Assembly: GCF_030064675.1 (NCBI RefSeq) | Contig: NZ_CP116413.1 | Coordinates: 7,655,501-7,719,500 of the forward strand | Direction: 5' to 3' | Source: Crossiella sp. CA-258035 | GTDB taxonomy: Bacteria > Actinomycetota > Actinomycetes > Mycobacteriales > Pseudonocardiaceae | Length of the DNA: 64,000 bases | In this document: positions 3,066 through 59,390 of the stretch, piece after piece | How positions within the stretch are numbered: the stretch's first letter is position 1 | Layout: every line of letters starts with the position of its first letter | Translations under genes and position numbers: made by a program | Notes under the pieces: model-generated | Database searches by the model: none | The model's input: the letters and a program-made list of their open reading frames with translations, nothing else | Told to the model about the DNA's origin: nothing

Positions 3066-4910
3066 GTGCCCCCGCTCCGCTCCCGCGTGACCACCCACGG
3101 CCGCAACGCCGCAGGCGCCCGTTCGCTCTGGCGCGCCACCGGTATGACCGACTCCGACTTCGGCAAGCCGATCGTGGCCATCGCCAACTCCTACACCCAG
3201 TTCGTGCCGGGGCACGTGCACCTGCGTGACCTCGGTGACATCGTGGCCGAGTCGGTGCGCGAGGCCGGTGGCGTGGCGCGGGAGTTCCACACCATCGCGG
3301 TGGACGACGGCATCGCCATGGGGCACGGCGGCATGCTCTACTCGCTGCCCTCCCGCGAGCTGATCGCGGACGCGGTGGAGTACATGGTCAACGGCCACGC
3401 CGCGGACGCGCTGGTCTGCATCTCCAACTGCGACAAGATCACCCCCGGCATGCTGATGGCCGCGCTGCGGCTGAACATCCCGGTGGTCTTCGTCTCCGGC
3501 GGGCCGATGGAGGCGGGCAAAGCCGTGGTGGTGGACGGGGTCGCGCAGGCGCCGACCGACCTGATCACCGCGATCGCCGCCTCGGCCAGCCCGGACGTCG
3601 ACGACGAGGGCCTGTCCATCGTGGAGCGCTCGGCCTGTCCGACCTGTGGCTCCTGTTCCGGCATGTTCACCGCGAACTCGATGAACTGCCTGACCGAGGC
3701 GCTCGGGCTTTCCTTGCCGGGCAACGGGTCCACCCTGGCCACGCACGCCGCCCGCCGGGCGCTGTTCGAGCGGGCCGGCACCACCGTGGTGGAGCTGGCC
3801 AAGCGCTACTACCAGCAGGACGACGAGTCCGCGCTGCCGCGCAACATCGCCAACCGGGCCGCGTTCGAGAACGCGATGGCGCTGGACGTGGCCATGGGCG
3901 GCTCGACCAACACCGTGCTGCACGTGCTGGCCGCCGCGCACGAGGCGGAGCTCGACTTCACCATGGCCGACATCGACGCGGTCAGCCGCCGGGTGCCCTG
4001 CCTGGCCAAGGTGAGCCCGAACTCCGACTACCACATGGAGGACGTGCACCGGGCCGGTGGCATCCCGGCCATCCTGGGCGAGCTGGACCGGGCCGGACTG
4101 CTCAACCGGGACGTGCGCACCGTGCACAGCGCGAGCATGGACGAGTGGCTGGGCGCCTGGGACATCCGCGCGGAGTCGCCCTCGGCGGAGGCGGTCGAGC
4201 TGTTCCACGCCGCGCCCGGCGGGGTGCGCACCACGCAGGCGTTCTCCACCAGCAACCGGTGGTCCTCGCTGGACACCGACGCGGCTGGCGGCTGCATCAG
4301 GGACCGCGCGCACGCCTACACCGCTGACGGCGGCCTGGCGGTGCTGCACGGCAACCTGGCCGAGGACGGCGCGGTGATCAAGACCGCCGGCATCGACGAG
4401 GAGCTGTGGGTCTTCCGCGGCCCGGCCAGGGTGGTGGAGAGCCAGGAGCAGGCGGTCTCGGCGATCCTGGGCAAGCAGGTGCAGCCCGGCGAGGTCGTGG
4501 TGGTCCGGTACGAGGGCCCGGCTGGCGGCCCCGGCATGCAGGAGATGTTGCACCCCACCGCGTTCCTCAAGGGCGCGGGCCTGGGCAAGGTGTGCGCGCT
4601 GATCACCGACGGCCGGTTCTCCGGCGGGTCCTCGGGCATCTCGGTCGGGCACATCTCGCCGGAGGCGGCCGAGGGCGGGCTGATCGGGCTGGTCCAGGAC
4701 GGCGACGAGATCGTCATCGACGTGCACCGGCGCAAGCTGGAGCTGCTGGTGGACGAGGCGGTGCTGGCCGAGCGGCGGGCCAAGATGGAGGCCAGCGAGA
4801 ACCCGTGGCAGCCGGTGGACCGCCAGCGCCCGGTGTCCAAGGCCCTGCGCGCCTACGCCCGCCTGGCCACCTCAGCGGCCACCGGCGCGGTCCGCGACCC
4901 CGCCAAATAA
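3066..4910 (+). CDS. ilvD: dihydroxy-acid dehydratase
   Basis: Iron-sulfur enzyme that dehydrates 2,3-dihydroxy-isovalerate and -methylvalerate to the 2-keto acids of valine and isoleucine synthesis. Length (614 residues) and start ([14 protein letters not shown]) fit the family exactly; GTG start with a strong AAGGAGG site 5-11 nt upstream. Cluster ligands are visible as C122 in [10 protein letters not shown] and the CPTCGSC motif at 191-197. The gene follows the PH-domain protein by 9 nt. Placement beside ilvBN, transcribed divergently, gathers the branched-chain pathway at one locus. The TAA stop is itself the first bases of the 22-nt repeat array that follows. Confidence 0.97.
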
Positions 4911-4999
4911 CGGCCAACACACCGTACGAGAACGGCCAACACGCGAGGGTGGAAAACCCCCGGCGGCGTGTTGGCCGTTCTTGCGCTGGGTGTTGGCCG
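4911..4999. repeat. 22-nt repeat array, locus A
   Basis: Two copies of CGGCCAACAC start at 4911 and 4933 on the plus strand and two reverse copies (GTGTTGGCCG) start at 4968 and 4990; both pairs are exactly 22 nt apart. The 12 nt between copies are ACCGTACGAGAA on the left and, read on the minus strand, CCAGCGCAAGAA on the right. The central 25 nt hold AGGGTGGAAAACCCCC. The opposed arrays can fold into one long stem. The TAA of ilvD and the TAA of the convergent DoxX gene each abut an outer copy as TAACGGCCAACAC. Same family as loci B and C; a bidirectional terminator role is inferred. Confidence 0.9.
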
Positions 5000-34463: not shown

Positions 34464-35369
34464 ATGACTCGACTCCCGACCCCGGCGGATGTGGCCAGCG
34501 CGGCCGAGCGGATCGCCCCGTACGTCCGGCGCACGCCGATGACGCGGGTAGTGCTGGACGGCAGGCCGCTGTGGCTGAAGCTGGAGCAGCTCCAGCTGAC
34601 CGGCTCGTTCAAGCTGCGCGGCGCGACCAACGCGCTGCTCACCGGTGACCGGCCGGCGCGGGTGGCCACGGTCAGCGGCGGCAACCACGGGTTCGCCGTC
34701 GGCACCGCGGCCCGGCTGCTGGACCTGCCGACCAGGGTGCACGTGCCCAGCTACGCCGCGGAGAGCAAGATCCGGCGGATCAAGGAGACCGGGGCCGAGG
34801 TGGTGCACCACCAGACCTACCCCGAGGCCAACGAGGCGGCCCGGCTGGAGGGCGAGCAGCCGGGCACCCGGTTCGTCTCCGCCTACGACGACCCGGCGGT
34901 GATCGCCGGCCAGGGCACGGTCGGCCTGGAGATCGTGGCGGACGCGCCGGAGGTGGACGCGGTGTTCGTCGCGGTCGGCGGCGGCGGGCTGGCCGCCGGC
35001 CTGGCGCTGGGCACGGCGCGGCGGATCGTCGCGGTCGAGCCGACCGGCTGCGACTGCCTGCACGCGGCACTGCGAGCGGGCGAGCCGGTGCACACCGAGG
35101 TGGACTCGGTGGCGATGTCCGCACTGGGCGCGGCCAAGGCGGGCGAGCTGACCTTCGCCGTCCTGCGCGCGGCCGGTGTGGAGTCGCACCTGGTCACCGA
35201 CGCGGAGCTGCTGGCGGCCAGGGACCGGTTGTGGGAGGAGTTCCGGCTGGCCGTGGAGCCGGCCGCCGCGGTGCCGTTCGCGTTGTGGCTCAAGGACGAG
35301 GTCCCCACCGAAGCACCCTGCGTGGTCCTCTGCGGAGCCAACACCGACTGGCTCCCCACCGACGCCTGA
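34464..35369 (+). CDS. PLP-dependent threonine/serine dehydratase-like enzyme
   Basis: A 301-residue fold-type II PLP enzyme. The Schiff-base lysine is K50 in TGSFKLRGATNAL; the phosphate-binding SGGNHG follows at about 72-77, and the Gly loop reads VGGGGLAAG near 175. The length fits catabolic threonine dehydratases or serine racemases without the C-terminal regulatory domain of IlvA, so it probably degrades Thr/Ser to 2-oxobutyrate/pyruvate and ammonia. Regulated most likely by the divergent LysR gene. Its stop is followed after 11 nt by repeat locus B. Confidence 0.88.
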   Translation: MTRLPTPADVASAAERIAPYVRRTPMTRVVLDGRPLWLKLEQLQLTGSFKLRGATNALLTGDRPARVATVSGGNHGFAVGTAARLLDLPTRVHVPSYAAESKIRRIKETGAEVVHHQTYPEANEAARLEGEQPGTRFVSAYDDPAVIAGQGTVGLEIVADAPEVDAVFVAVGGGGLAAGLALGTARRIVAVEPTGCDCLHAALRAGEPVHTEVDSVAMSALGAAKAGELTFAVLRAAGVESHLVTDAELLAARDRLWEEFRLAVEPAAAVPFALWLKDEVPTEAPCVVLCGANTDWLPTDA

Positions 35370-35380
35370 CCCCACCCCGA

Positions 35381-35469
35381 GTGTTGGCCGGTGGCGTACG
35401 CCAGTTTGGCCGTTGTGGACGGCAGCCCAGTCCACAACGGCCAACGAGGCGTACGACAACGGCCAACAC
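35381..35469. repeat. 22-nt repeat array, locus B
   Basis: Reverse copies of the 10-nt core start at 35381 (GTGTTGGCCG) and 35403 (AGTTTGGCCG, slightly diverged); direct copies start at 35438 (CGGCCAACGA) and 35460 (CGGCCAACAC). Spacing is 22 nt in both halves, and the 12-nt linkers carry GGCGTACG. The centre adds TTGTGGAC/GTCCACAA, so the whole 89 nt is an imperfect palindrome with arms of about 40 nt and only a handful of mismatches. It separates two convergent genes and probably terminates both. Copies point outward here and in locus C but inward in locus A. Confidence 0.9.
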
Positions 35470-35478
35470 TCGGCGGGG

Positions 35479-36651
35479 TTAGCCGGTGGCGGTGGTGGCG
35501 GTTCTGGGGGCGGCCAGGAGTGGGGCCAGGGCCAGTTCGGCCGCGCCGATGAGCACCGGGTCGGGCAGGGCGGCGGTGGTCACCGGGACCGGGTGGATGC
35601 GGGCCACGTGTGAGGTCTCCATGCCGGCCAGGATGCGCTCGCGGGCGCCGGGCGCGCCGTGCATGGCGGCCAGCTGGCCGGTGAGGATGACCAGGTCCGG
35701 GTTGAGCAGGGTGACCAGCACGGCCAGGCCGGCGCCGATCCGGTCCGCGGTGGCCAGCACCGCGGCGGTGTGCCGGGGGTCGGCCAGCACCTCGGCGACC
35801 GCGGCGCGCGGGTCGGTGGTGTCGGTGAACGGGATGCCGGCGTGCCGGAGCAGCGCGCGGGCGTCGGCCTGGGTCTCGAAGCAGGAGGTCGCGCCGCAGG
35901 GGCAGCGGCTGGGCTCGGCGGTGCTCAGCTGGAGGTGACCGGCTTCCAGGGCGTGGCCGGCGCTGCCGTCGAAGGTGACGCCGTGCTGGACCAGGCCGCC
36001 GCCGATGCCCACGTCGTCGCCGCCCAGCACCACCGCCACCCTGGCCTGCTGGGCCGCCCCGTGCCTGCTCTCGGCCAGCGCGGCCAGGTGGCCGTCGTTG
36101 CACGGGTACAGGTCCAGGCCGGGCAGGCGCTCGGCGAGCAGCCGCTTGAACGGCACGTCGGTCCAGCCCAGGTGGAAGGCGGCGTGGATCTGGCCGTTCG
36201 GCGCGTCCAGCACCGCGGGCAGCGCGATGGCCAGCCCGGTCAGCCCCTGGTGGCGGCGCAGCAGCGGGCGGGCCAGCGCGGCCAGCCGGTCGGCCACCGC
36301 CTCGGGGGTGCGCTCGTCAGGGGCCAGCGGGACCTCGGTGCGGTCGGTGACCGCCCGGCCGAGGCCGACCGCGGCGATGCTCAGCGAGCGTGAGCGGACC
36401 TGGGCGGCCAGCACCCTGGGCCGCGGCACCACCGACACCTGCGGCGAAGGACGGCCCAGGCGGCGCGGGCCGTCGGCGGGCGGGCCGCACTGGATCAGGC
36501 CCAGCTGCTCCAACTCGGTGATCGCACTCCCGGTCGCGCTGCGCGCCAGGTCCAGGCGGCGGCTGAGATCCGCTCTGGTCAGCGGCCCGTGCCGGTGCGC
36601 CAGCGAGAGCAGGCGCTGGGCCGCGGGTTCGGCAAACGGGGTTGTGCTCAC
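35479..36651 (-). CDS. ROK-family transcriptional regulator
   Basis: A 390-residue NagC/XylR-type repressor: winged HTH at about 9-62 (HGPLTRADLSRRLDLARSAT, GSAITELEQLGLI) and a sugar-kinase-like ROK domain with the zinc-site cluster CPCGATSCFE and the EAGHLQL loop. Ligands of such regulators are usually sugars or sugar phosphates. GTG at 36651. The partner sugar genes are not adjacent; the CUT1 transporter 2.5 kb away is a possible target. Confidence 0.9.
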   Translation of the reverse strand: MSTTPFAEPAAQRLLSLAHRHGPLTRADLSRRLDLARSATGSAITELEQLGLIQCGPPADGPRRLGRPSPQVSVVPRPRVLAAQVRSRSLSIAAVGLGRAVTDRTEVPLAPDERTPEAVADRLAALARPLLRRHQGLTGLAIALPAVLDAPNGQIHAAFHLGWTDVPFKRLLAERLPGLDLYPCNDGHLAALAESRHGAAQQARVAVVLGGDDVGIGGGLVQHGVTFDGSAGHALEAGHLQLSTAEPSRCPCGATSCFETQADARALLRHAGIPFTDTTDPRAAVAEVLADPRHTAAVLATADRIGAGLAVLVTLLNPDLVILTGQLAAMHGAPGARERILAGMETSHVARIHPVPVTTAALPDPVLIGAAELALAPLLAAPRTATTATG

Positions 36652-57638: not shown

Positions 57639-59225
57639 GTGTTCACGACCGCCCGCCGCACCACCCGCGTCCGTACCGCCGAACTTCCCACTCGACTGCT
57701 GAGTCTGTCCCTGCTGCTGACCTGCCTGGCCGGGCTGCTCGCCGCCCCGGCCGTCCCCGCTTCGGCCCGCGTCCGCGCGGTGCGGGAGCTGCCCACGGAT
57801 CTGGAGAAGATCCGCGCGGGCGAGTCGACCTCGCTGTACGGCAGCCCGGAACTGCGGCCGCCGGCACAGCGCAAGTCGTCGGTGGTCAGCCTCGGGGACA
57901 GCCAGGTCTCGGGTGAGGGCGTCGGCAACTACGAACCGGGCACGGACGGTCCGCTGAACTTCTGCCACCGTTCGGTGGGCGCCGCGGTGCACCAGGCTCG
58001 GTTCGACACCGACCTTCGGTTCAACCTGGCGTGCTCCGGTGCGGAGAGCACGCACCTGGTGTACCGCAGCGGCGCCAAGCAGTTCGACGAGCTCAACCAG
58101 GGCGACAGCCTGGCGATCAAGGCCCGCAACACCAGGGTCAGGCTGATCTGGCTGATGTCCGGGGCCAACGACACCGGCGGGCTGGAGTTCGGGCCGCTGG
58201 CCAAGGACTGCGCCGGGCGCAGGCTGTTGCTGGCAGGCAACTGCTGGCCGACCTACACCGACGGCATGCAGCAGCGGGCCAACGGCACCCAGGCCGCGCT
58301 GGAGAAGGGCATCGCCAGCATCCGGCAGACCATGCGGGACGCCGGCTACGGCGATGGCGACTACCAGTTCGTCCTCGGCAGCTACCCGAGCCCGCTCGGT
58401 CCCGACGTGGAGGACAACCCGACGTTCCCCGGCTGGAACCAGGGCGGCTGCCTGCTCTACCTCAAGGACCAGGCCTTCGCCCGGAACAAGGTGGTGCCGA
58501 TGGTGGAGCGCGCCATCCGGCAGGCCGCGAAGAACACCGGCGTCCGCTACCTGGACACCAGCCGCCTGCTGCACGGGCACGAGGTGTGCTCGGACACCCC
58601 GTGGGCGCGCGGGCTGACCTTCCTGGGCAGCCAGCAGTCCTTCCACCCCAACGAGGCCGGCCACACCGCCTACGGCGACTGCCTGACCGCCTTCTACGCC
58701 AACCCGAGCTGGCCGGAGGGCACCTGCGTGGACCCGGCCAGCACCGGCACCGCCACGCTCTACCGCGGCCTGCTGGACTTCCGGCAGCTGCGCAACGCCA
58801 AGACCGGCCTGTGCGCCGACGCCGAGGGCTACTCGACCAGGGTCGGCTACAAGCTGCTGGCCTGGAACTGCACCGGCGGCGGCAACCAGGGCTTCTGGCG
58901 GGACCCGGCCACCGCGGCGCTGCACATCGAGCTGAACCACGACCGCTGCCTCGGCCCGGCCGGTCCGGCCCTGGCCCCCGGCGCGCCCATCCAGCTACAG
59001 GAGTGCACCGGCGCGGCCAACCAGCGCTGGGGGCTGGTGGAGGGCCTGCTGCGCGCCACCGCCAACCCCGCGGTCTGCCTCGCCCCGGCCAACGAGACCG
59101 CGGGCGCGGCCATCCAGCTGGCCAACTGCAACCCGGCCGACCCGACCCAGGGCTGGAGCTTCGAGCCGCAGACCGGCGGCGCCGGCTTCGGCCACGCCGA
59201 CTGGATCCCAACCAGCGCCTACTAA
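57639..59225 (+). CDS. secreted SGNH-family lipase/esterase with ricin-type lectin domain
   Basis: A 528-residue exported protein. After a signal sequence (hydrophobic LLSLSLLLTCLAGLLAAPAV, about 20-41) comes an SGNH esterase domain: nucleophile S88 in SLGDSQVSGEG, oxyanion N177 in SGANDTGG, and catalytic H336 in FHPNEAGH. The C-terminal 150 residues form a ricin-B beta-trefoil: three repeats (GLCADAEGYS, DRCLGPAGP, AVCLAPANE) each with a QxW-like end (NQGFW, NQRWG, TQGWS). The lectin part probably binds glycans. GTG at 57639 has AAGGATG upstream. Paired with a secreted phospholipase gene. Confidence 0.85.
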   Translation: MFTTARRTTRVRTAELPTRLLSLSLLLTCLAGLLAAPAVPASARVRAVRELPTDLEKIRAGESTSLYGSPELRPPAQRKSSVVSLGDSQVSGEGVGNYEPGTDGPLNFCHRSVGAAVHQARFDTDLRFNLACSGAESTHLVYRSGAKQFDELNQGDSLAIKARNTRVRLIWLMSGANDTGGLEFGPLAKDCAGRRLLLAGNCWPTYTDGMQQRANGTQAALEKGIASIRQTMRDAGYGDGDYQFVLGSYPSPLGPDVEDNPTFPGWNQGGCLLYLKDQAFARNKVVPMVERAIRQAAKNTGVRYLDTSRLLHGHEVCSDTPWARGLTFLGSQQSFHPNEAGHTAYGDCLTAFYANPSWPEGTCVDPASTGTATLYRGLLDFRQLRNAKTGLCADAEGYSTRVGYKLLAWNCTGGGNQGFWRDPATAALHIELNHDRCLGPAGPALAPGAPIQLQECTGAANQRWGLVEGLLRATANPAVCLAPANETAGAAIQLANCNPADPTQGWSFEPQTGGAGFGHADWIPTSAY

Positions 59226-59235
59226 CCCACCCGCC

Positions 59236-59390
59236 GTGTTGGCCGTTCTCGTACGGTGTGTTGGCCGATCTTGGACGCGGTGTTGGCCGTTCCCGTACCC
59301 ACCAGCGCCCACTTCGGCCAACGCGGCGTACGACTTCGGCCAACACTCAGTACGAGATCGGCCAACACTCGGTACGAGAACGGCCAACAC
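59236..59390. repeat. 22-nt repeat array, locus C
   Basis: Seven copies of the 10-nt core, all in register at 22 nt. Reverse copies (GTGTTGGCCG) start at 59236, 59258 and 59280; direct copies start at 59315 (CGGCCAACGC), 59337, 59359 and 59381. Linkers on the direct side are GGCGTACGACTT, TCAGTACGAGAT and TCGGTACGAGAA. The two opposed arrays can fold into one stem of more than 60 nt. Located 10 nt after the SGNH gene and just before a possible small minus-strand gene, so again at convergent gene ends. Largest of the three loci. Confidence 0.93.

Follow-up and report, generated by a model that had tools for sequence, protein, structure and literature searches.

The question raised by this stretch of DNA is what the opposed arrays of a 22-nt unit between its gene ends are, and what they may do there. 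The stretch, called the window below, covers 64,000 nucleotides (C1:7655501-7719500) of the Crossiella genome G000, which consists of 9.17 Mb in one contig, C1. A preliminary description had placed the same unit at 4911-4999, 35381-35469 and 59236-59390, each time as two opposed arrays, and both the coordinates and the presence of a plus and a minus arm were confirmed at all three places (loci A, B and C). Locus A was composed of a plus-strand arm with two exact cores and one linker (4911..4942), an apex of 25 nt between the arms (4943..4967) and a minus-strand arm with two exact cores (4968..4999), and its ends were adjoined by the stop codons of an ilvD-like and a DoxX-like gene. The minus arm of locus B (35381..35412) contained one exact core and one degenerate core at 35403 with 3 mismatches by eye, and the plus arm (35438..35469) contained a 2-mismatch core at 35438 and an exact one; the PALP-domain gene ended in a stop codon followed by a C-rich stem foot (35370..35380), whose partner was the G-rich 35470-35478. 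In locus C, the minus arm (59236..59289) held three exact cores, with the stop codon of a GDSL lipase/lectin-domain gene 10 nt before it, and the plus arm (59315..59390) held four cores, one of them with 1 mismatch; the stop codon on the minus strand was 340 nt from the element. Fifteen cores had been counted in the window, a number that stands only when degenerate cores are included, since 12 were exact and three carried 1, 2 and, by eye, 3 mismatches. All three loci lay between convergent genes, as had been described, according to our own codon-usage gene caller, which was used in place of the NCBI annotation. The neighbors were ordinary: ilvD-like and DoxX genes at A, a PALP enzyme and a ROK regulator at B, and a GDSL lipase/lectin-domain protein and a methyltransferase at C.

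The array family and its hairpins

A search of G000 for two exact cores separated by twelve nucleotides (core-N12-core) revealed 203 pairs (101 forward, 102 reverse), and the reversed-pattern control gave 0. Core matches with at most one mismatch numbered 41 in the window, and the largest number in 100 shuffles was 19. The G000 sample consisted of a 464-kb contiguous block ending with the window and forty 20-kb regions picked for pattern content. A PWM built from 117 exact units, N[C/G][C/G/T]GT[A]C[G]A[G/C][A/T][A/T]CGGCCAACAC, matched the 464 kb 40 times at a score of 14 or more, and the reversed sequence 0 times. The unit is therefore common genome-wide and not rare, and the arrays at the three window loci are members of a dispersed family. 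That the excess arose by chance or as a compositional artefact of a GC-rich genome is virtually inconceivable: core-like words do arise randomly (9.7 expected in the window), and a block finder looser than the strict pattern found 35 clusters in the pooled genomes and still 7 after the sequence was reversed, but the strict-pattern and PWM reversed controls had already refuted this explanation.

Among the 143 neighboring same-strand exact cores of G000 that were less than 120 nt apart, the spacing was 22 nt in 117, 21 nt in 16 and 42-44 nt in 10; an exact distance of 22 nt, as first proposed, was thus the rule and not a constant. Same-strand exact cores of G001 were spaced by 22 nt (101), 21 nt (7) or 44 nt (1). 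Linker positions 4, 5 and 7 were G, T and C in 117, 116 and 117 of the 117 units. The invariance of the core in the PWM was built in, because the units were selected by their exact cores.

The relatives used for comparison were G001, G002, G003 (Crossiella sp. S99.2) and G004 (Crossiella sp. SN42). The exact pattern was present in five of 390 genomes of the family Pseudonocardiaceae, with 203 pairs in G000, 452 in G001, 92 in G002, 44 in G003 and 2 in G004. It had been suggested that related Pseudonocardiaceae be searched; relatives do carry the arrays, but only within one genus, Crossiella. A slightly stricter pattern found 34 stretches in 84,980 species genomes, all from Crossiella sp. S99.2 and SN42, in a collection that may omit records near the genome of the window and in which G001 and G002 were not among the matches. 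The exact pattern had 0 matches in viral contigs, and a virus-borne origin was rejected.

G004 bears the same species label as G000 and is about 97% identical to it, yet it contained 2 array pairs against 203. Aligned window pieces longer than 400 bp were 95.6-98.7% identical in G004, 80.1-94.7% in G001 and 81.8-94.3% in G003. An assembly artefact behind the near-absence in G004 is unlikely, because the empty sites also show different gene ends and different stop codons. In G003 blocks such as L077, the ortholog of locus B, the arrays formed a diverged subfamily whose core was TTGGCCCAACT-like and whose linker, CTCGTACGCC, was well conserved, and the arrays of G002 had a linker of their own, GAGGTACGG; by eye, these core and linker variants look like species-wise homogenisation. 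Two similar arrays of G001, at C1:143791-143923 and C1:153706-153838, were 10 kb apart and had largely identical linkers, perhaps through a recent segmental duplication.

Most clusters of G000 had opposed arms (49 of 65), with 36 two-armed elements in minus-plus and 13 in plus-minus order, and 62 of the 65 clusters were intergenic. In G001, plus-minus elements prevailed (26 vs 8 minus-plus). The folding z was below -2 in all two-armed elements of G000 (49/49) and G001 (34/34), with means of -9.4 and -10.1 from 20 shuffles per element on the given strand only, the elements being near-palindromic; the strong folding is partly built in, because the arms were located via their cores. The minus-plus elements ended in a foot formed by a C-run and a G-run, in which the fourth position outward was C in 34 of 36 and G in 34 of 36. 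The outer three positions of the foot could pair at frequencies of 0.69, 0.58 and 0.53 within a locus vs 0.54, 0.43 and 0.38 between loci (n=36, given without a p value). Linker positions 10-12 also agreed between paired arms in G000, where the SWW trimers were identical in 40% of paired arms, 26% of unpaired arms, 31% of same-arm neighbors and 20% of comparisons between loci. This covariation was absent at positions 10-12 in G001; it was therefore rejected as proof of an RNA stem, and as partial support it is not relied on here. A stem reaching into the coding run-up was likewise rejected, as flank complementarity in the 36 minus-plus elements was not above that of shuffled sequence (p 0.99 at 15-45 nt, 0.93 at 30-60 nt and 0.66 at 60-100 nt); the 13 plus-minus elements gave p 0.075-0.085 at 0-45 nt. 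A known RNA family was also rejected: Rfam gave 0 matches at the gathering score in the window, and the 8 matches up to E 0.5 in seven other loci included none at the gathering score (best 0.0014, a microRNA model).

The regularity of the unit, which the preliminary description had linked to a protein reading one face of the DNA, could also reflect binding sites. A sequence-specific protein of the nucleoid or insulator type would then contact the DNA every 22 bp and either block RNA polymerase or shape the chromosome. The near-invariant G, T and C of the linker go beyond the needs of pairing, the spacing is nearly strict, single-arm arrays exist, and at 7648 kb the cores were unchanged in four genomes while the linkers varied (by eye). 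However, the constancy of the core in the PWM follows from how the units were picked, spacings of 21 and 22 nt are both present, the opposed arms of 49 clusters are able to form a hairpin, and the protein itself is putative; we consider this explanation quite unlikely. An RNA duplex, too, makes about two turns in 22 bp.

Gene ends and the C-rich, G-poor run-up

The position of the arrays was analyzed with the looser block finder in blocks of G000, G001, G003 and G002 that were contiguous or picked as orthologs of the region of the window. Arrays filled 20/153 gaps between convergent genes, 12/570 between codirectional genes and 0/155 between divergent genes (Fisher test, convergent vs codirectional 2.4e-7, convergent vs divergent 4.3e-7), and the difference between codirectional and divergent gaps in these blocks was not significant (p 0.08). 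The 20 convergent gaps corresponded to 22 clusters, since two composite elements of G001 contained two clusters each. By genome (G000, G001, G003, G002), the filled gaps were 8/71, 8/31, 4/26 and 0/25 for convergent, 4/260, 2/107, 3/113 and 3/90 for codirectional, and 0/72, 0/31, 0/27 and 0/25 for divergent pairs; G004 had 0 arrays in 151 kb of block sequence. Stop codons facing an element were within 15 nt of it in 74 of 103 cases and within 40 nt in 87 of 103. The 65 clusters of the G000 stretches were located in convergent gaps (42), codirectional gaps (20), divergent gaps (0) and inside genes (3), and the three intragenic clusters, all single weak cores, are probably due to chance. A larger G001 set, mostly picked for the pattern, gave 26 convergent, 13 codirectional and 2 divergent positions. 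The preference for convergent 3' ends that the preliminary description had seen at three loci was therefore borne out by the filled gaps.

The genes abutting the elements showed a strand-asymmetric base bias, which is new and was absent from the preliminary description. In G000, the last ~90 nt of 81 abutting gene ends were C-rich, G-poor and T-poor when compared with a baseline of 260 convergent gene ends without an element. The C-G skew was +0.12 to +0.17 in the three 30-nt bins vs -0.02 to -0.04 in the baseline, and the mean over the last 90 nt was +0.165 vs -0.015 (p 1.8e-18). TAA stops terminated 30 of 81 abutting ends vs 14 of 260 baseline ends, and the run-up was more weakly folded (-32.9 vs -38.5 kcal/mol per 90 nt). 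The skew was replicated in G001 (52 vs 115 ends, p 3.3e-13) and had the same direction in G003 (7 ends) and G002 (3 ends). Core number was not correlated with skew (r 0.04, n=137), and decayed units as a source of the run-up were rejected, as no lag-22 excess was found (0.284 vs 0.278).

At locus A, the last 90 nt of the plus-strand gene (4821..4910) had a skew of +0.25, and four relatives without a recognised array gave +0.21, +0.15, +0.22 and 0.00. At locus B, the skew was +0.17 on the plus strand (35280..35369) and +0.32 on the minus strand (35479..35568), with -0.16 and -0.06 for the plus gene and +0.10 and -0.03 for the minus gene in two relatives without the element. The plus-strand run-up of locus C (59136..59225) was weak (+0.14), and G004 without the element had +0.12. 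In 18 ortholog groups with both states, the occupied end had the higher skew in 14 (0.194 vs 0.098, p 6e-4), and a control stretch further upstream differed slightly (0.025 vs 0.004, p 0.043). The empty orthologs at 0.098 were still above the baseline, and those of locus A were about equal to the occupied end. Through the bias that accompanies the array, a dispersed repeat is linked to the coding part of neighboring genes.

The run-up could also be an unselected mutational scar centred on the element, in which breaks, hairpin repair or outward synthesis would expose one strand, and it does look like the change of skew at a tiny replication origin. The bias sits in third codon positions. When 12 ends were compared from G004 to G000 over their last 60 nt, 46 differences were counted, of which 16 were G>C and 13 were G>A, against 0 and 5 in the reverse direction. 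At codirectional elements of G000, the downstream noncoding side mirrored the coding side, regardless of gene direction, in 16 of 19 long-enough loci (p about 3e-5), with a skew of -0.35 at 12-30 nt, -0.16 at 30-60 nt, -0.20 at 60-90 nt and -0.04 at 90-150 nt against a baseline near +0.02. Pooling of the four genomes gave mean noncoding-side skews of +0.19 (14 loci) and +0.18 (17 loci), directed toward the element. In G001, however, the noncoding side was weaker (-0.19 at 12-30 nt) and near zero at 30-90 nt (13 loci), and single-arm arrays showed skew mainly at genes reading GTGTTGGCCG (0.221, n=21, vs 0.041, n=8; p 0.015, post hoc), a polarity rule that made no difference on the noncoding side (0.181 vs 0.19; n=17 and 14). 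A mutational scar is judged unlikely.

The same sites in relatives

Each locus is a natural experiment, because what a given gap contains, be it an array, a plain hairpin or neither, varies between close relatives. In the gap of locus A, G004, G001 and G002 each had a perfect hairpin between both stop codons, and G003 had a diverged array. The array of locus B was common to G000, G001 and G003; in G004 and G002 the stop codons touched or the gene calls overlapped. Nine G000 loci had block orthologs, and they were occupied in G001 at 7, in G003 at 4, in G002 at 1 and in G004 at 0 in a tally that scored the diverged G003 arrays as empty. At five of these nine loci, G004 lacked an array and had a hairpin stronger than -35 kcal/mol, compared with a lowest value of -32.2 in 25 coding windows, each of which offered less sequence to search than the longer gaps. 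Four of these hairpins replace an array, since the fifth, beside rpmB, was also kept in G000. The other four loci of G004 had neither an array nor a hairpin beyond the coding-window null, and a terminator therefore seems dispensable there. At 7648 kb, G004 kept a degenerate outer unit beside a hairpin missing from G000, and at 7615 kb it lacked both the array and the stop codon; by eye, the two sites look like array losses. At 7597 kb, G000 probably gained its array, because G003 and G004 shared the older gap sequence (by eye).

Gain and loss of this kind would also be expected of a non-autonomous mobile repeat, similar to REP or BIME, that inserts where 3' ends tolerate it and terminates transcripts as a by-product, an explanation compatible with a terminator. 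The copy number ranged from 2 to 452 exact pairs across the five genomes, both shared and private sites occurred, the 7597-kb array was apparently gained in G000, and arrays of G001 bounded copies of a dispersed ~650-bp repeat. Against this, Y1_Tnp (PF01797) had no match in G000, G002 and G004 (one in G001 and three in G003), and no target duplication was seen by eye at the single inspected site, beside rpmB. That none of the 155 divergent gaps was filled, and that stop codons were so near, points to something beyond tolerance, and other hairpins occupied the same place at 4 loci. A mobile repeat whose effect on transcription is incidental is conceivable, if somewhat unlikely.

The ~650-bp element is a second noncoding repeat with nested hairpins (L049:770-1425; G000:C1:2288640-2289226, L099). 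It had 89 matches in G001, 24 in G000, 23 in G004, 19 in G003 and 0 in G002, some copies being matched twice. The 22-nt arrays bounded all three inspected G001 copies and lay beside one of the three inspected G000 copies. G004 retained this repeat despite having only 2 array pairs.

The proposed terminator reading and known systems

A bidirectional transcription terminator is the best account of the arrays, because it covers where they lie, why plain hairpins can stand in for them at some loci, and why the foot is close to the stop codon. Judged from sequence comparison, each element seems rather likely to be such a terminator, which would also provide the 3'-end structure of the mRNA and would spread and turn over fast. 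A transcript entering the opposed arrays from either side would form one long hairpin, in many elements with the C-run/G-run foot, that would sit a few nucleotides past the stop codon and could substitute at some loci for the plain GC-rich hairpin of relatives. Loading of Rho from either side would be consistent with the weakly folded, C-rich and G-poor run-up, and the hairpin may be the end point that halts exonuclease trimming. Within the genus, the family would colonize additional gene ends and later disappear from them. Several findings count against this reading: T is depleted in the run-up, YC was not enriched beyond composition (0.226 vs 0.233 expected at 137 ends of G000 and G001), the run-up is also found on the downstream noncoding side, where mutation centred on the element would produce it too, and two G001 elements lie in divergent gaps. 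Of the candidates named in the preliminary description, the bidirectional terminator and the dispersing intergenic element both stood, and they are not exclusive.

A more far-reaching version, which we offer tentatively and consider doubtful as a whole, is a spreading terminator cassette, in which the array hairpin between rut-like run-ups would take over gene 3' ends genus-wide, alter synonymous codon choice over the last ~90 nt of abutting genes and depend on a trans factor. If so, loss of the trans factor would explain the near-total absence of arrays in a 97%-identical strain. At stake is the way transcription ends in high-GC actinobacteria, where U-tracts are often missing, and the way terminators originate and are replaced.

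Rho-dependent terminators are reported, in the excerpted text of PMC12350095, to be marked by C>G bubbles, with bidirectional tandem Rut peaks, and U>G is also reported there for Rut sites. The run-ups of the arrays resemble them in the C>G bias and in having little stable structure. They differ from those excerpted descriptions in that the run-up is fixed beside a repeat hairpin and depleted of T, and a role of Rho is putative.

A likeness in function is offered by the Bi-TEPs of Streptomyces clavuligerus (Ju et al. 2019, as cited in the excerpted part of PMC8269248), at which transcripts ended on both strands. According to the same excerpt, the hairpin 3' ends of S. clavuligerus were enriched in C near -30 and in G near -10, and those hairpin ends of Streptomyces that lack U-tracts could represent either I-shaped terminators or Rho ends shielded from exonucleases (PMC8269248). 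The ending of transcripts on both strands is what Bi-TEPs would have in common with the arrays, at which termination is putative. In the same excerpted text, Bi-TEPs are not described as a dispersed family of array repeats (PMC8269248).

In the literature searches, no published description of a 22-nt array repeat was found among the matches listed. This agrees with the first impression that no described family has such a unit. REP sequences are described, in the excerpted part of PMC3733652, as high-copy short palindromes located downstream of coding regions, mainly between convergent or unidirectional genes; opposed partners may fold into larger structures, and roles in termination and mRNA stability have been hypothesised (PMC3733652). 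The arrays are similar to REP, BIME and REPIN, as far as these are covered by the excerpt, in copy number, place and opposed pairing, but differ in the tandem 22-nt unit of each arm, the conserved linker, the asymmetric run-up and the restriction to one genus. A RAYT-driven REPIN was rejected, with no PF01797 match in G000, and inspection showed no fixed GTAG/CGTC tag in the 117-unit consensus or in the flanks of the 36 minus-plus elements. The arrays are not classed as REP, because the RAYT is missing in G000 and the tag is missing by inspection. Instead, they are a previously undescribed variant among the dispersed palindromic repeats of intergenic regions and probably act as a bidirectional terminator would.
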